Below, in pieces: positions 23,165-34,116 of a DNA stretch of 64,000 nt. The position numbers were made by a program, and so were the translations under genes. Positions within the stretch are counted from its first letter, which is position 1, and every line of letters starts with the position of its first letter. The stretch lies in the NCBI RefSeq assembly GCF_024714495.1, contig NZ_JAMZMJ010000006.1, positions 124,001-188,000 of the forward strand. The letters run 5' to 3'. The DNA is from Marinoscillum pacificum. Lineage in GTDB: Bacteria > Bacteroidota > Bacteroidia > Cytophagales > Cyclobacteriaceae. A model generated the notes under the pieces. It had not been told where the DNA came from, did no database searches, and was given only the letters and a program-made list of their open reading frames with translations.

Positions 23165-24985
23165 TTAATTCACCAAATCACCTCGAATCTGTCGGATTCT
23201 TTGTCTGGCCTCTGCAACATACATGCTTCCAGGATGCGCTTTCAAAAATTCCTGGTAAAGTGTCATGGCTTGCTCTTCATCATGAAGATAATCTTGTACA
23301 ATAGTCGCTTTTTTATAGAATGCATCGTCACTTAGGATGTCATAGGAATATGCCTGAATAATTTTATCCAGGTAATCCACAGCTTGTTGATAATTCCCGG
23401 CTTGAAGTTCCAGCTTTGACTGTAGCCAGTACACTTCATCGGTAATGCTATGTCCAGGATTCTCTTTCAGGATTTTAGCCAATTTGGCTTTTGCCTCGGC
23501 AGTTTTATTTTGAAATATTAACAACTCTACGTTGGCAAATTCCTGCATGATAAAATCTGTGGTATCGAAAGCCGTATTATCTGTAATCAATAAACTGAGT
23601 GCAATGGCATCATTGGATATTTCGCGAGTGGTCGCCAGTTTTAAAATGTCAAGATGACTTTTCGCCAAAGCGAAGTTTCCCGTAAAATAGTTGAGTCTGG
23701 CATTTCGCAATTTCGCTTCATATCCCAGCGGCGCTTCCTTATTATCTTTTTCAACTTGAGAGTAGAGTAGGGTAGATTCCCACGGTTCACCAGTCAAAAT
23801 ATAAATATCTCCGAGATCCAGTTTACACTCTGATACCAGAGCGCGCGGAGCGCGTCGATTTTCGATTACAAAATTCAGGATTCGAGTGGCCGTGTCTAAT
23901 TCGTCTAGATAAAAGGCGTGAAGCAGCGCTTTGTTACGGAGTGCTTCTAAAGTGGTATAATTTGGACCAATCTGATCGTACAATTCTGAATATTCAGTTG
24001 CCAGGTTTCTTATAGCCGTGGTGTCTACCGGAAATGCCGTTTTCACTTTGTTCTCCTTTGACTTAATAAGGAATCTTCTGGCTTGTGGATAATTGTAGTC
24101 ATCACCGTAGGTATCGATCACATAAGTGTAAATATCAATGGCATCATCCCAGGACTCATTGTCATAAGCGATTCTAGCGATTCGCATACTCTGATCACCA
24201 GGCTGTTGATTTCTACGATCCAAAGCCCGAGCTTGAATAAATGCAGCGTAATAATTTTTGCGCTGAAGTTCTAACCAGATCAGTAGATCCGAATACAATG
24301 CACTATTCGGATCCTTCTGGATTTTCTGAATTAAAGTCTCCTCTAAAAATTCCTGATCCTCTGGTTCGGTCAAGATGTTTTGAAACAAGTTTTTTACATA
24401 AGCCAGATTAGCTGGATTTCCCTCAGCATAATTGATGTACTCTTCGGTCATCTTGCGCTTATCGTTTTTCATTCGATAAAGGGCAGCCATGTCCAAAGCA
24501 AATGCAGATTCCCGACCATTCAGTTTTCTAGCAGTGAGATAAAAATCAATAGCTTCTTCATACATCTGGTGAGAAACCAGATTTTGGGCAATAGAACTAA
24601 GCTGATACTGATTTTCAATAAACTGCTTTTTGAGTGTTGATAAGTACTTATCTAATTTATCGGATTCACCAATAGTGTGATATAAAAAAGCCAAGTCTAC
24701 CTGGTAGTTAATGTTTCCAGGAAATGATTTGATTACGCGATCAAGATATTTTTCGGCGCCCTTGATATCCTGTTCTTCTAAAAGCAGGCGAAAATAGTTC
24801 GCATGTATTAATGGTATAACCGAACGATTTTTTTCCAGATCTTCAAACATCGCGCGGGCTTTTTCAAATTCGCCCTGCTGAAAATACTCATTTGCTAGTT
24901 TGGCATCATCTGTTTGGGCTGACAGAGAAAGCGCGGCGCCGAGGAGAGTAATTATTATTAAAAATTTTCTGGTATACATATACAT
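23165..24985 (-). CDS. secreted TPR-repeat protein
   Basis: The frame starts at GTG 24997, but the ATG at 24985 begins a signal peptide ending at L-S-L-S-A-Q, giving 606 residues. The mature part is built of helix pairs with tetratricopeptide spacing: A-N-E-Y-F-Q-Q-G-E-F-E-K-A near 30, then more pairs through the length, and Y-Q-Q-A-V-D-Y-L-D-K-I near 555 before a final pair. TPR proteins in the periplasm or outer membrane act as scaffolds. It borders the candidate origin region on its upstream side. Partner and role are unknown. Confidence 0.88.
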   Translation of the reverse strand: MYMYTRKFLIIITLLGAALSLSAQTDDAKLANEYFQQGEFEKARAMFEDLEKNRSVIPLIHANYFRLLLEEQDIKGAEKYLDRVIKSFPGNINYQVDLAFLYHTIGESDKLDKYLSTLKKQFIENQYQLSSIAQNLVSHQMYEEAIDFYLTARKLNGRESAFALDMAALYRMKNDKRKMTEEYINYAEGNPANLAYVKNLFQNILTEPEDQEFLEETLIQKIQKDPNSALYSDLLIWLELQRKNYYAAFIQARALDRRNQQPGDQSMRIARIAYDNESWDDAIDIYTYVIDTYGDDYNYPQARRFLIKSKENKVKTAFPVDTTAIRNLATEYSELYDQIGPNYTTLEALRNKALLHAFYLDELDTATRILNFVIENRRAPRALVSECKLDLGDIYILTGEPWESTLLYSQVEKDNKEAPLGYEAKLRNARLNYFTGNFALAKSHLDILKLATTREISNDAIALSLLITDNTAFDTTDFIMQEFANVELLIFQNKTAEAKAKLAKILKENPGHSITDEVYWLQSKLELQAGNYQQAVDYLDKIIQAYSYDILSDDAFYKKATIVQDYLHDEEQAMTLYQEFLKAHPGSMYVAEARQRIRQIRGDLVN

Positions 24986-24989
24986 GAAG

Positions 24990-25382
24990 TTATCCACTTT
25001 ATTCTTCTACCTTATAATGAATATATAAGTTTTAAATTAAAAGCTATTTCTATTATTAAGGCTGTGGATATGTGGGTAAATCACTGAAATTAGATTTGTT
25101 TTTTAGGTTTGTTTATAAGTGATATCTATCTGAAATGTTTTCCACAGTTTATCTCTCTGTTAAGTCATTGAAAATCTGTCTTTTATTTTAAAATGTAGAT
25201 AAGTGATATATGCTCAATGTGAATTAGTGGAGAAGTAAAGATTTGGGATAGATGGTTGATAAATGTGAAGTTATTTGAAGTTTGTACTGCTTCACATGAA
25301 ATGTGGAAGTGGACAAAGTATAACTATGAGTTATTCCACCATAGTATCCACACTTGTCCACATGTTTATTGAGTTATTCAGA
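24990..25382. other. candidate chromosomal replication origin (oriC)
   Basis: The 390-base AT-rich gap between two minus-strand genes has no coding frame but carries nine 9-mers, each one mismatch from the DnaA box TTATNCACA: 24990-24998, 25138-25146, 25344-25352, 25354-25362 and 25374-25382 on the plus strand; 25063-25071, 25071-25079, 25194-25202 and 25218-25226 on the minus strand. None is perfect. A 60-base stretch at 25001-25060 has only ten G/C bases and could be the unwinding element. Two parS sites lie 4.5 kb to the right next to mnmG, a gene often close to oriC. The last box runs into the 3' end of the next gene. A chance cluster of this density is unlikely, but no skew computation was done. 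Confidence 0.65.
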
Positions 25383-27084
25383 ATGAAAATTCAAGTTGAT
25401 TTTCGAAGTTTGCTCGCAGGGTAGTTTCTTCTTTGAAGTAGATTACAGGCTCTGGAGCAATGTTTTCTCTATAGTTTCCAACATCCCATTTTCCATTTTG
25501 ATTGCTGTCTATAAGGATTCTAACCCAATAATTTGCTGGTGGAAGATTGTTGAATACACAGTGTTTAGTATTGGTTTGACTGGCTACTACTTCCTTCTTG
25601 TTCATTAGTTGAACAATGAAATGTGTAGAATCAGTATTGAGCGTTACTTCTATTAGTCCAAGGCTCTCTTGCTTCAAGAACTTGTAGTTTTGGTTAAGAA
25701 CTGCTGAACTGTCCAGTTCTACTGATTGGAATGATTTAGGAAGTATTTGAACACTGAAGTTCGATTGATTAATTGATGTAAGTCTTTTCTTGAGTTCCAT
25801 CTGTGCTGTATCAATATTGGTCGAGTCAATAACTATAGCATCACTAAGTCTGGTAAGACTGTCTTTGTAATTGTTTAATGTGATATCCAGATCAAAGGAG
25901 ATGTCAAGATTGTGATTGGAGTAAACCACATTTCTTGGTTGATAATCGAGTCTAACTAATGTATCATAAACAACATCGAGGAAGTCAGTATTTAATATCT
26001 CAGTAGGTTTATTAAAGGACAGTTTGTATCTAGATGTACTCGTTACTTGAGAATTCTTAGCGGGTAATAATGACATGGTGAAGGCTTCAGGCTTTCGTGA
26101 AGACTCTCTAAACTGTATGTAGGTAGTGTCCGTAGAGGTGTTACCAAGACTATCCCTAACATAGAGTATACTGAACAAACTATCTGTAAATGATTTGTTG
26201 TCGTAGACTCGTATGGTCTTATTTTCATCTACTAGTTTACTAGCTATATTGAGTGAATCTGTATTTTGAATAGAATACTCTACAAGTGGTTTAGAGTATC
26301 TAATTTCGAAATATCTGCCAGATGGCCTTGCTGAGATATACTCTAATGCTGCAGCGTTTATTTGAATAGCATTCAATGAAAGCGTATCTCCAGACTGAGT
26401 TCGCATGTCAATCGTATCTGATTTAATGGCATAAGATTCTGTAGCTGCGTCAAAAATTAAATTTCTGTTCTCATCTCCAAATGCTAACATTCTGAATTTG
26501 GAAGCTTTGATATTTTGGAGGAAGAATTGACCTTCTTCATTAGTTGTGCTAAAGTAGGTTGGCTTGTTTACTTCAAAGTCTAGTGTATCACTAATGGTGT
26601 ATAGACCTACAGTTATTTTGTCTTTGGGTTCTCCAGTTAAAAGATCAAGTACCTGACCGGATAAGTACAATGAATCAATATAGCTGCCGGTACTAAATGC
26701 GATGATTAGATTTTCAGCTGGTGTCTTTTCTGTAATGTCAGTTATCCCATCAAAGAAGTTAAAAGTGTAGGTAGTACTATCTTCGAACGGTTCTTCGAAT
26801 TGTAGAGTTACAGAGTACTTCTTCTGAATGGTTTTGTATTTGGTTTCAGTAGTAGGAGTAATCACCAAATTCTGTTGAAGCTTATCTGCATTGATAACTT
26901 CATCAAACTCCAAAGTAATAGTTTGTCCTTTAAAGTTTAGCTGTTGGTCAACTGGATTTGATTCTAGCAAGGTAGGAGGGATGGTATCTTTTGGACCTCC
27001 TGTAGGTGTTATTGGATTAGCACAACTTAATGCTATAAGTTCAAAAACTAGAATAATGGTGATTGACTTAAAAAGTAGCTTCAT
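25378..27084 (-). CDS. Ig-like-domain lipoprotein
   Basis: The 568-residue protein has a lipobox A-L-S-C20 followed by A-N-P-I-T-P-T-G-G-P-K-D-T-I-P-P, a very common opening of Bacteroidota envelope lipoproteins. An Ig-like (Big_5-type) domain follows (about 35-135: D-Q-Q-L-N-F-K-G-Q-T-I-T-L-E-F-D-E), with carboxypeptidase-regulatory-like segments after it (Y-L-S-G-Q-V-L-D-L-L-T-G-E near 140). It is the last gene of a probable operon mnmG-methyltransferase-lipoprotein, overlapping the methyltransferase by 4 bases. Its plus strand looks richer in G than in C, unlike most minus-strand genes here. Role unknown. Confidence 0.87.
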   Translation of the reverse strand: MKLLFKSITIILVFELIALSCANPITPTGGPKDTIPPTLLESNPVDQQLNFKGQTITLEFDEVINADKLQQNLVITPTTETKYKTIQKKYSVTLQFEEPFEDSTTYTFNFFDGITDITEKTPAENLIIAFSTGSYIDSLYLSGQVLDLLTGEPKDKITVGLYTISDTLDFEVNKPTYFSTTNEEGQFFLQNIKASKFRMLAFGDENRNLIFDAATESYAIKSDTIDMRTQSGDTLSLNAIQINAAALEYISARPSGRYFEIRYSKPLVEYSIQNTDSLNIASKLVDENKTIRVYDNKSFTDSLFSILYVRDSLGNTSTDTTYIQFRESSRKPEAFTMSLLPAKNSQVTSTSRYKLSFNKPTEILNTDFLDVVYDTLVRLDYQPRNVVYSNHNLDISFDLDITLNNYKDSLTRLSDAIVIDSTNIDTAQMELKKRLTSINQSNFSVQILPKSFQSVELDSSAVLNQNYKFLKQESLGLIEVTLNTDSTHFIVQLMNKKEVVASQTNTKHCVFNNLPPANYWVRILIDSNQNGKWDVGNYRENIAPEPVIYFKEETTLRANFENQLEFSF

Positions 27085-27957: not shown

Positions 27958-29823
27958 TTATTTATTTAGGTACACCATTAAAATTGAAACGTCTGATGCA
28001 GATACTCCTGATATTCTGGAAGCCTGCCCTAAAGTTGATGGTTTTATTTTTAATAGTTTCTCTCTTGCTTCAGATGATAGTGATGTTATTTGAGAGTAGT
28101 CAAATTCTGGATTGATCTTTTTATTCTCCAGAGCTATCATTTTCTCTGAGTTCTCCTGTTCTCTTGCTATGTATGTTTCGTATTTAATTTGAATCTCTGC
28201 CTGTTCCCTAACTTCAGCACTATAGGACTCCATATAGGATTTCAATTCTGGATCTATATCACAAAGATTTTGCAGGTTGATTTCAGGTCTTTTCAGTACT
28301 TGATACATAGATGATGTATCCTTCACAGGAGCACTATCTATGGATTCAAGCATAGGATTGAAATCTGCAGGCTTGTGTTTCTTTTGTTTGAGATCATTAA
28401 TGAGACGTTTGGTCTCATGCATTTTAGTCATGGTTAGCTCATATCTATGTTCTGTAGCCAAGCCTAACTCATAAGCTTTTGGAGTTAATCTCAAATCCGC
28501 ATTATCCTGTCTGAGGAGTAATCGATACTCAGCTCTAGAAGTGAACATACGATATGGTTCATTGGTACCTTTATTTATTAGGTCATCAATTAATACTCCA
28601 ATGTATGCGTCTGATCTATTAAGTATTAATGGATCTTGCTCATGAACTTTTAGATGCGCATTGATTCCAGCCATCAATCCTTGACAAGCAGCTTCCTCAT
28701 ATCCTGTTGTTCCATTTATTTGACCAGCAAAATATAGGTTGGCTATTAGTTTGGTCTCCAGTGTTTGACTCAATTGTGTAGGAGGGAAGAAGTCGTATTC
28801 AATAGCATAACCTGGTCTGAACATCTTCGCATTCTCAAATCCTGGTATTTTAATGAGTGCTTTATACTGTACATCTTCTGGTAATGAGGTAGAGAATCCG
28901 TTTACATAGACCTCTACAGTATTCCATCCTTCTGGTTCTACGAAAATTTGATGTCTATCACGCTCTGCGAATCTATTGATTTTATCTTCTATAGATGGAC
29001 AATAGCGTGGACCTAGTCCTTTAATTCTACCATTAAACATAGGAGATTTATCAAATCCCGTTTGTAAGACTCCATGAACTTCAGGACTTGTATAGGTAAT
29101 CCAGCAAGATCTTTGTTCTTTCAATGGTTCTGTAGAGTCTAGATAAGAGAACTTCTGTGGATTTTCATCACCCTTTTGTTCTTCCATTTTGGTGTAATCA
29201 AGACTTCTACCATCTATTCTAGGTGGAGTCCCAGTCTTCATTCTACCGCTTTCAAAGCCAAGTTCTATGAGCTGTTCTGTAATTCCAGTGGCTTTACGTT
29301 CTCCAGCTCTTCCACCACCGAACTGTTTTTCACCTATATGAATCAATCCATTTAGGAAGGTTCCATTGGTAAGAACAACTGCTTTACCTTTTATTTCTAT
29401 ACCCAGACTTGTTCTGACACCTATTACTCGTTTGTCTTTGACTACAAGTCCAGTGATCATTTCTTGCCAAAAGTCTACGTTAGGTGTTGCTTCCAGTGCC
29501 AATCTCCATTCTTCCGCAAAGCGTATTCTATCTGATTGCACTCTAGGACTCCACATAGCTGGTCCTTTACTTTGGTTAAGCATACGAAATTGGATCATCG
29601 ACTTATCAGAAATGATTCCCGAGTATCCACCAAGTGCATCTACTTCACGAACTATTTGTCCTTTGGCCACACCTCCCATTGCAGGATTACATGACATTTG
29701 GGCAATAGTGTTCATGTTCATGGTGGCAAGCAATACCTTAGAACCCATATTAGCAGCTGCAGCAGCGGCTTCACAACCGGCATGTCCAGCTCCCACTACA
29801 ATTACATCGTATTCTGGAAACAT
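27958..29823 (-). CDS. mnmG: tRNA uridine-5-carboxymethylaminomethyl modification enzyme, FAD subunit
   Basis: The 621-residue protein begins with the FAD motif G-A-G-H-A-G-C-E-A-A (12-21) and has S-C-N-P-A-M-G-G-V-A-K-G, G-T-P-P-R-I-D and the conserved C-terminal helical region. With MnmE it modifies the wobble uridine of several tRNAs in a folate- and FAD-dependent reaction. Length matches the family. It lies 4.5 kb from the candidate origin, as in many bacteria where gidA/mnmG is near oriC, but no mnmE, rsmG or dnaA is in view. A parS-like site lies 13 bases upstream of its start. Confidence 0.97.
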   Translation of the reverse strand: MFPEYDVIVVGAGHAGCEAAAAAANMGSKVLLATMNMNTIAQMSCNPAMGGVAKGQIVREVDALGGYSGIISDKSMIQFRMLNQSKGPAMWSPRVQSDRIRFAEEWRLALEATPNVDFWQEMITGLVVKDKRVIGVRTSLGIEIKGKAVVLTNGTFLNGLIHIGEKQFGGGRAGERKATGITEQLIELGFESGRMKTGTPPRIDGRSLDYTKMEEQKGDENPQKFSYLDSTEPLKEQRSCWITYTSPEVHGVLQTGFDKSPMFNGRIKGLGPRYCPSIEDKINRFAERDRHQIFVEPEGWNTVEVYVNGFSTSLPEDVQYKALIKIPGFENAKMFRPGYAIEYDFFPPTQLSQTLETKLIANLYFAGQINGTTGYEEAACQGLMAGINAHLKVHEQDPLILNRSDAYIGVLIDDLINKGTNEPYRMFTSRAEYRLLLRQDNADLRLTPKAYELGLATEHRYELTMTKMHETKRLINDLKQKKHKPADFNPMLESIDSAPVKDTSSMYQVLKRPEINLQNLCDIDPELKSYMESYSAEVREQAEIQIKYETYIAREQENSEKMIALENKKINPEFDYSQITSLSSEAREKLLKIKPSTLGQASRISGVSASDVSILMVYLNK

Positions 29824-29835
29824 ATATTTATAAAA

Positions 29836-29851
29836 GGTTTCACGTGAAACA
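29836..29851. other. parS site 1
   Basis: Matches TGTTTCACGTGAAACA at 15 of 16 positions (first base G instead of T), including the complete 14-base palindrome GTTTCACGTGAAAC. parS is the ParB loading site of chromosome segregation and clusters near oriC. It lies between mnmG (start at 29823) and ybeY. Confidence 0.85.
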
Positions 29852-29882
29852 GTTCATCAACCAACACCGAAACACCACAAGG

Positions 29883-29898
29883 TGTTCCACGTGGAACT
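29883..29898. other. parS site 2 (C-G variant)
   Basis: TGTTCCACGTGGAACT fits the degenerate parS consensus TGTTNCACGTGNAACA at 15 of 16 positions (last base). It is 47 bases from site 1 and overlaps the stop codon of ybeY by two bases. Confidence 0.8.
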
Positions 29899-33700: not shown

Positions 33701-34116
33701 TCAAATACTTTAAGTTCACTCTGTTTTTGATCAATGGCTGCAAGAAGAAGTGAAGATTGACTTGTCGAATTCTGACTTAACTGTAAGAGGTTCAGTAGTT
33801 TATCCTGTATATCTGGAAAATGTCTTCCAATAAGTTTAGCTGCTTCCTGATCTGAAATACCACGATTGATTTGAACAATTTTAGAAATTGGTATGAGAAT
33901 TCGGAAGATTACGAAGTAAAGAAGCAATCCGACAAGAATAGCGAAAATCCCTAGTCTCACAGGTTGATCAAACCAAAAATAACCTTCTAACAAACTGAAT
34001 ATCAACCAAATAGCTCCGAAAAGTAGTATAGAAATCAGTGATCCTCTAATGAGTTGGTTCACGTGAAACTTTCTTTTGAACCTGATGATGTTGTCTTTCA
34101 GATTGTTAGTAGTCAT
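30724..34116 (-). CDS. DUF4175 coiled-coil membrane protein
   Basis: The 1,130-residue protein has two N-terminal membrane segments (about 24-45 and 53-78), a third near 150-170, an Ig-like beta region (200-480), then long coiled coils rich in Glu, Lys and Gln (about 500-900) and Gln/Met-rich segments near 925-1010. This layout is the DUF4175 family of Bacteroidota, of unknown function. It is the first gene of a coupled set DUF4175-ATPase-ybeY. A near-parS palindrome lies in its N-terminal coding region. Confidence 0.93.
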   Translation of the reverse strand: MTTNNLKDNIIRFKRKFHVNQLIRGSLISILLFGAIWLIFSLLEGYFWFDQPVRLGIFAILVGLLLYFVIFRILIPISKIVQINRGISDQEAAKLIGRHFPDIQDKLLNLLQLSQNSTSQSSLLLAAIDQKQSELKVFDFKEAVDFKVNKKYLIYVGSLLVVIFLVSFISPGLFSESSSRIVQFNKPFEKPAPFSFELESKLFAFKGDSYEIDVMLNGESIPDQVYLLDNNQKFRLNKGKNGHYVFNYPSINSNKSIQFSAAGYDSKKYEIKVINRPELRNMSVKIDYPEYTGLSDEMRENTGSFVVAEGTKITWNINSSDTQQGFFIVGGDSSSMSLKNDHFEFARSVTNSLEYEIALANEYATNKSRIIYDISVIKDELPEIDANYLPDTISYKSLLFTGNIEDDYGFTSLSLLYKKNDDKNYHRIAIPFEKSQINQQFYLQWDLDSMNLTSEDYLEAFVQVTDNDRINGYKASQSQKFFLRMPSDKEVESMISEKSNESESKLDDAEAKAEEINDRLKDLEDRLRNKRELDWQDKKLIEDIIKDKEKLSKEIEELAEQHQQLLDSQKEFGKQSEKLQEKAKQLQELIEEVLDDETKKLYDELQKLLKEQNNTDQVLEELSKIKNNEKNMEKELERALELFKRLKLQTGIEQSAEKLEKLAEKQEDLANVTMAEALLDEERQSSKSAENKESQQQNDEQKAAQTDTEKQQEEINKEFDEIQEQLDSLEQLNQDLKNPQPMEDFQKEEQQIEEKLNEIPQDLQNQQKQKAGQKMKNAGQQMKNMASSMQQMQMGMEMTMMQENLDHLRDILDNLIKLSFEQENIIDEIKEVQQIDPRFIELSQDQLQLISNAQVIEDSLLSLASRVAQISNFVTREVGEINSQLDRAMNELRERNKGKAASHQQFAMTSMNNLALLLDDVMQQMQMAMSEAMGNPQKGQGQKQSLPSMQQMQQQLSDQIQQLKSSGKSGRELSEQLAKLAAEQAELRRQMESMQQQLAGQKAGKEGENGEEGGNGSEAGDKLGEAIKQMEENEVDLVNKRLTQELIDRQQEILTRMLEAEESMREQKESPEREGETATPQQRKLPPAIEEYLKAKKEEIELLKTIPLDLNPFYKKEVNDYFRRLSGEEQ
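34055..34070. other. parS-like site 3, inside the DUF4175 gene
   Basis: TGGTTCACGTGAAACT matches parS at 14 of 16, with the TTCACGTGAA core intact. Coding position near the N-terminus of DUF4175. Confidence 0.5.

Follow-up and report, generated by a model that had tools for sequence, protein, structure and literature searches.

A very probable chromosome replication origin in a conserved gap near mnmG, far from dnaA, in Marinoscillum (Cytophagales)

Introduction

Where does replication of the chromosome start in Marinoscillum, a genus of the Cytophagales in the phylum Bacteroidota? The question is raised by an intergenic gap of ~380 bases that is situated between a TPR-repeat gene and a gene for an Ig-like (Big_5) lipoprotein. 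The window, i.e., the whole stretch of 64,000 bases analysed here, comprises bases 124001-188000 of a 392,781-base contig of a draft genome (6.40 Mb in 32 contigs). A preliminary description of the window had proposed that this gap, and not the surroundings of dnaA, holds oriC. The present analysis leads to the same reading: the gap is very probably the chromosome replication origin, at a position that is conserved, close to mnmG and distant from dnaA.

The oriC of Escherichia coli is a cluster of DnaA boxes with an AT-rich unwinding side, located near mnmG and not beside dnaA. Its placement between gidA and mioC is given in a passage of PMC10225481. Origins of Bacteroidetes are commonly far from dnaA, as stated with reference to DoriC in a section of PMC4755523, where the oriC of Prevotella intermedia OMA14 is likewise predicted away from dnaA, supported by skew. 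Excerpts of the reports on Mariniflexile litorale (PMC11278836) and Algorimicrobium strain KMM 8389 (PMC12843772) describe predicted, skew-supported origins beside mnmG. Because these three reports, in the parts that concern the origin and that rely on Ori-Finder/DoriC, already describe dnaA-distant or mnmG-side origins, the kind of origin proposed here, distant from dnaA and in some cases beside mnmG, is known for the Bacteroidota. An exception within the phylum is Blattabacterium Bge, which has neither dnaA nor DnaA boxes according to a passage of PMC2768785.

The proposed origin resembles the Ori-Finder/DoriC predictions in its distance from dnaA and in its skew support. In contrast to these, which cover one or two genomes, the exact gap is followed here across many Cytophagales, and the arrangement is TPR gene, oriC and Big_5 lipoprotein gene, 2.6 kb from mnmG, including lineages in which the TPR gene has moved away. 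This exact placing across the order, with a TPR gene that is able to leave, and a two-block trio-like array may be new: neither the arrangement nor the array was found in the accessible parts of the open-licence full-text literature, a search that lies outside DoriC itself.

Location of the gap and its DnaA boxes

The features of the region are collected in Table 1. Beyond the gap, the gene order is lipoprotein-like gene, methyltransferase gene, mnmG and ybeY. The distance of 4.5 kb that had been assigned to mnmG is that of the parS-like sites; mnmG itself starts 2.6 kb from the gap. The open reading frame of the TPR gene has its furthest GTG start at 24997 and in-frame ATGs at 24985 and 24979, and the product of the Big_5/DUF2141 gene is a putative lipoprotein, as read from its N-terminus. 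In agreement with the preliminary description, the gap is free of genes (the window's list of open reading frames has none of at least 100 codons inside it) and AT-rich, with 10 G/C among the 60 bases 25001-25060.

Table 1. Features in and around the proposed origin, in window coordinates
Feature	Position	Strand	Basis
Proposed oriC, intergenic, AT-rich, with DnaA-box cluster	24999..25377	.	Box count and shuffles, box-rich relatives, skew switch
Flanking TPR-repeat gene	23165..24985	-	Pfam TPR models
DnaA box beyond the unwinding element, TTATCCACT	24990..24998	+	Box scan; GTGGATAACT kept in 6/6 genus rows of alignment A2
Probable DNA unwinding element	25000..25059	.	Nearest-neighbour energy
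GCC spacer and trio-like array TTAATAATAGAAATAG, three consecutive 3'-NAN-5' motifs (AAT TAT TAT)	25044..25062	-	Rule from passages of PMC8287927
Tandem DnaA boxes TTACCCACA/ATATCCACA, one-base overlap, pointing to the AT-rich side	25063..25079	-	Uniqueness, conservation
Middle DnaA boxes 25110(-), 25138(+), 25194(-), 25218(-)	25110..25226	.	Conservation 0.87, 0.79, 0.87, 0.60
Lipoprotein-side DnaA boxes 25344, 25354, 25374	25344..25382	+	Conservation 0.38, 0.80, 0.90 (the last over only four bases)
Flanking Big_5/DUF2141 lipoprotein-like gene	25378..27084	-	Pfam PF13205, PF09912
mnmG (gidA)	27958..29823	-	Pfam PF01134
Two parS-like sites upstream of mnmG (29836, 29883)	29836..29898	+	At most one mismatch to TGTTYCACGTGRAACA

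Both dnaA (near 495.6 kb, C22:495612) and dnaN (near 22 kb, C22:22410) reside on a different contig, C22, in line with the earlier proposal that the place of the origin is not set by dnaA. The DnaA ATPase family has one match in the genome, a protein with the N-terminal, ATPase and helix-turn-helix Pfam domains. The likeness to the E. coli oriC thus comprises the box cluster, the AT-rich unwinding side, the vicinity of mnmG and the separation from dnaA; unlike in E. coli, the gap is not adjacent to mnmG, the lipoprotein and methyltransferase genes lying between, and its neighbours differ.

DnaA boxes were defined as 9-mers with at most one mismatch to TTATNCACA on either strand of the stretch 24990-25382, to the ends of which the outermost boxes extend. 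Ten are present, at 24990(+), 25063(-), 25071(-), 25110(-), 25138(+), 25194(-), 25218(-), 25344(+), 25354(+) and 25374(+), the last overlapping the stop codon of the lipoprotein-like gene. None is perfect; each differs from TTATNCACA by exactly one mismatch. The preliminary description was accordingly right about the single mismatches and about both strands being occupied, and short by one in its count of nine. It had also put the chance expectation at well under one box, which is too low: shuffles of the 393-base stretch that keep its dinucleotides contain 0.95 boxes on average, i.e., about one. The excess is nevertheless real, as the maximum among the shuffles is six and 0/5,000 reach ten. 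The background in the genome itself is 0.48 boxes per 393 bases in a sample of 404 kb, which includes 20 kb around dnaA (C22:480001-500000). When this sample was scanned in 393-base windows with a step of 20, five or more boxes occurred in 29 of 19,858 windows, all of which overlap the gap. Other gaps of similar box density, named beforehand as counterevidence, are absent from this sample and from 125 gaps at related loci. The gap thus holds an intergenic box cluster above chance, as is to be expected of an oriC.

Rfam models have no match in 24000-26500 up to an E value of 1, and the single-strand fold of 25000-25080 is not unusual (z -0.44). For 25260-25380, the predicted fold exceeds shuffled sequences in stability (z -3.4, 1/200 as good); it is given no weight, since a large share of these bases belongs to the most poorly conserved portion of the gap.

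Conservation in relatives

A search with the TPR protein in 59 genomes, the own genome included, found matches in 52, a few of them weak, of which the best 30 loci were taken. The gap upstream of the TPR gene is readable in 29 of the 30 loci, again with the own one, and holds 5-15 boxes in 28 of these. At the locus L031 (genome G038), the TPR gene is present and its gap is devoid of boxes; the 19 kb around it contain no strong cluster, with at most 5 boxes per 500 bases.

A scan of named genomes, some of them shared with the 59-genome set, provided the best 80 of at least 576 confirmed TPR loci. The gap is unreadable in three of these (L078, L111, L149) and one, L147, is a special case; the remainder are 67 linked loci, with the lipoprotein gene beside the gap, and nine unlinked loci without it. 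The linked loci of this best 80 of at least 576 have a median of 8 boxes, at least four boxes in 63/67 and at least one perfect box in 60/67; one to three boxes are found in L105, L134, L135 and L145. The unlinked loci of the same selection have 0, 0, 0, 0, 0, 1, 1, 2 and 2 boxes. The two groups differ (Mann-Whitney p 8e-7, kinship ignored), with the proviso that p-values overstate independence because the loci are related. Elsewhere in the same loci, 125 gaps that measure 150 bases or more have a mean of 0.50 boxes per 400 bases, and 0/125 have five.

Among the named matches listed, which may not include records of the own genome, the closest TPR proteins are those of L071 (89% identity) and L070 (82%, Marinoscillum sp.). 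The former record (PBTY01000014.1) is titled Rickettsiales bacterium NP5; judging from its TPR protein and its gap sequence, both of which are like those of Marinoscillum and thus of Cytophagales, it is probably a mislabelled Cytophagales genome.

Eight genomes of Pontibacter and Botryobacter show what happens to the boxes when the two flanking genes part. Here, the TPR gene is unlinked from the lipoprotein gene, which is found about 51-63 kb off on the same contig, and the region upstream of the TPR gene is box-poor. In 8/8 of these genomes, the downstream side of the lipoprotein gene carries a box cluster (4-9 per 500 bases) whose core resembles the one in the window (GTTATCCACTAATGAACAGCCTTAATAATGAAAG in P. 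roseus); the gene beyond the cluster is a sodium/hydrogen exchanger in L234, the one case checked. In the ninth unlinked genome, that of L127, there is no cluster beside the lipoprotein gene. A phylum-wide search of 198 genomes gave 165 with a match to the TPR protein, of which the best 30 loci were taken. Of this best 30 of 165, 23 loci are from outside the Cytophagales; the gap upstream of the TPR homologue is readable in 19 of them, all with 0-2 boxes. Inside the order (seven of the 30, own included), the gap contains 3-22 boxes in five loci; L246 and L248 lack both boxes and a clear lipoprotein homologue.

These data bear on the possibility that the boxes are transcriptional control sites in a DnaA-regulated promoter of the TPR gene. 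The gap does lie upstream of this gene, with the core of the cluster ~80 bases from the start, but all nine unlinked TPR upstream regions have 0-2 boxes, the cluster is beside the lipoprotein gene instead in 8/9 unlinked genomes, and TPR homologues outside the Cytophagales have similarly few boxes. The boxes remain with the lipoprotein-mnmG side and are scarce in the upstream regions of unlinked TPR genes; they are therefore not a feature of the TPR promoter, an explanation to which hardly any credence can be given. Conservation of both position and sequence in relatives is in keeping with an oriC.

Tandem boxes, trio-like array and unwinding element

Conservation within the gap was evaluated on five of the nine rows of alignment A2, all from the genus, leaving aside G003, a near-duplicate of the window, and the more distant G036, L072 and L073. 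The most conserved 50 bases of the gap are 25030-25079, with a value of 0.86 as compared to 0.50 for the rest; the best 50-base block among 2,000 column shuffles reaches 0.72. This block comprises the two overlapping boxes, the GCC spacer and TTAATAATAGAAATAG, and it runs into the AT-rich side. The tandem boxes are the best conserved of the ten (0.96 and 0.91). As a 17-base unit, TTWCCCACATATCCACA, they exist in a sole exact copy in the 6.4 Mb draft, the next best copies having 2 mismatches; 44 places match with up to three mismatches, versus 25 for the reversed control. Beside the boxes, the bases 25000-25059 form a stretch than which, by nearest-neighbour energy, only one separate 60-bp stretch of the window is less stable, so that the easily melted AT-rich segment of an oriC is present as well.

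The core is reminiscent of the basal unwinding system (BUS) described for Bacillus subtilis and other bacteria in PMC8287927. According to passages of that paper, a BUS consists of tandem DnaA boxes, a short spacer and, on the side to which the boxes are directed, three or more 3'-NAN-5' trinucleotides. All of these elements recur in the window. The published tolerance is two mismatches in the better box and four in the other, and the boxes at 25063-25079 have one each; at least three trinucleotides are called for 0-16 bases from the box, and the window has three, the minimum, behind a 3-base spacer in a reading made by eye. AT-rich DNA satisfies the trinucleotide rule easily, so the weight rests on conservation. 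At the level of sequence, the conserved core of two boxes and TAATAAT matches the published BUS pattern at its minimum. Compared to the BUS in these passages, the spacer of the Cytophagales is 3-4 bases, the window has AAT/TAT rather than GAT motifs, and many Cytophagales have a two-block TAATA array with a phase slip of one base.

Order-wide, a tandem in an 8-, 9- or 10-base register is found in 58 of the 69 gaps not counted as unlinked, versus 0/9 unlinked gaps, and 49/69 have a TAATA-like word within 26 bases of the tandem. The later words are one base out of phase in 27 of the 38 gaps with at least two such words; in the other 11, including the window, they are in phase. The search takes, per gap and for unlinked gaps alike, the tandem with the most TAATA-like words after it, and its counts lean towards finding such words because the picks favour these tandems; in L083, L096, L098 and L121, the picks are plainly other box pairs. 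A tentative and rather doubtful generalization would be that origins of the Cytophagales share an order-wide core in which two overlapping or abutting boxes (8-/9-base register) are followed, after a spacer of 3-4 bases, by two blocks of TAATA repeats, one base out of phase in most species having both, and that the DnaA filament skips a base between the trio blocks, provided that the slip is functional. In Marinoscillum itself, there is one TAATA array, all in phase, rather than two blocks. A functional slip would amount to a variant of the BUS that the passages of PMC8287927 do not describe.

Another near-perfect tandem pair, TTATCCACTTATCCACA, occurs elsewhere in the genome (C3:168319-168335; L206:1501-1517), in a gap beside an HNH/NUMOD4 gene near lytB/ispH. 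It has no surrounding box cluster and no TAATA-like array after it; a DnaA-titration or regulatory site or a chance match is possible.

Strand skew

Third-position skew, balanced over gene strands, was sampled in twenty 20-kb stretches each from four relatives (G005, G016, G032 and G034). In all four, its sign changes from minus to plus at the gap or close to it, and the reverse switch is far away. In G005, a member of the same genus with one contig of 3.7 Mb, skew is weakly negative (-0.03) over the 20 kb that precede the gap and positive over the 20 kb that follow it. In G032, the stretch at 5.70-5.72 Mb has minus skew, and plus values begin at the gap (5.785 Mb). In G034, skew is minus at 3.50 Mb; the stretch at 3.65 Mb is ambiguous, and the one containing the gap (3.763 Mb) is plus. 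In G016, the turn is between 1.72 and 1.85 Mb in noisy data, with the gap at 1.750 Mb. Stretches of the wrong sign at 2.7-2.8 Mb in G005 and at 5.9 Mb in G032 form the pattern that inversions would give. In two of the G005 stretches (C1 2.70-2.72 and 2.80-2.82 Mb; L223 and L224), genes on either strand show the wrong sign, which is what a recent inversion close to the origin of this genus member would produce.

On the own 393-kb contig, a one-switch model of the strand-balanced third-position skew gains 90 log-likelihood units. The best break is at 137 kb, with a bootstrap 95% interval of 132.2-165.9 kb; the gap, at 149.0-149.4 kb, is 2.3 log units below this optimum, which lies 12 kb to its left. 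Bootstrap breakpoints fall at 146-153 kb in 5.6% and at 140-160 kb in 45.6% of cases. This interval is used here, as 20-kb bins with an edge cut at 149.1 kb give a falsely exact switch. The skew of the own contig thus agrees with the gap as the switch, without pinpointing it. Raw cumulative GC skew within the window has no minimum at 25 kb and was set aside because most genes there are on one strand. A sign change at the gap, as previously predicted, is therefore seen at or near it in the four relatives and to within 132-166 kb in the own contig. The breadth of this breakpoint and its offset optimum would be compatible with the notion that the boxes are chance matches in AT-rich DNA and that the origin is elsewhere in the 132-166 kb interval; the box excess, its order-wide recurrence and the conserved core oppose it so strongly that it is extremely improbable.

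parS-like sites and the function of the gap

Apart from the two near-palindromes 4.5 kb from the gap, no place in the draft genome comes within one mismatch of TGTTYCACGTGRAACA, which we take to be the parS consensus (reversed control, 0); the two nearby parS sites of the preliminary description are thereby recovered. Two weaker sites are located at 34055 and 34969. Sufficient upstream sequence is available for 62 loci outside the unlinked group (L111 and L147 are among them), and 59 of these have a site with no more than two mismatches 4.2-5.6 kb upstream of the TPR start; the reversed pattern matches 1/62 loci, and the unlinked loci have 0/9. ParB_N has one match in the genome (C11:753178). 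The combination of parS-like palindromes near the origin with a single ParB_N match resembles a ParB-parS locus, the difference being that the parB gene is on contig C11 and not beside the sites. By this consensus, these near-palindromes are candidate chromosomal parS sites.

Clustered DnaA boxes are also contained in datA- and DARS-like sites, which titrate or reactivate DnaA. Such a site, binding DnaA without initiation, would be compatible with the computed data and would share the clustering, but not the change of skew sign that four relatives show at the gap or close to it, nor the adjoining unwinding element and tandem-box/TAATAAT core, nor the genome's only two strong parS-like sites 4.5 kb off; moreover, the 404 kb sampled contain no second cluster. 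It is a very unlikely reading, if slightly less so than the other two alternatives. The claim that oriC is in the window, between the TPR and lipoprotein genes, is supported by the box cluster, its linkage, the skew and the parS-like sites. There is high confidence in the whole explanation, in which the gap is oriC, with DnaA loading via the tandem boxes, melting of AT-rich DNA and ParB-mediated segregation at the parS-like sites.

The events that we infer for this origin region, i.e., DnaA binding, strand opening, helicase loading and ParB binding, could proceed in the following manner: DnaA, which is encoded on the other contig and has a complete DNA-binding domain, would bind the box cluster. 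The overlapping pair may then steer DnaA onto one strand of the AT-rich stretch via the TAATAAT trio-like repeats, and approximately 25000-25059, beside the TPR gene, would melt. Loading of the helicase would be followed by bidirectional replication, and ParB, acting from the parS-like sites on the upstream side of mnmG, may segregate the new origins.

Such a placement gives an origin to a draft genome that would customarily be made to begin at dnaA. Estimates of growth rate from read depth, analyses of skew and strands, and the construction of replicating vectors are all affected by whether the origin is placed correctly. As the box cluster remains with the lipoprotein gene when its TPR neighbour leaves, the rule is portable within the Cytophagales: the place to search for the origin is the gap that separates the TPR gene from the Big_5 lipoprotein gene or, in genomes whose TPR gene has moved away, the vicinity of the lipoprotein gene in the mnmG block. 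A separate case is the Microscillaceae MAG locus L147, where no lipoprotein homologue is seen; its 1.5-kb gap upstream of the TPR gene (L147:6164-7690) contains 25 boxes, 12 of them perfect, and is possibly an origin with a different neighbour.
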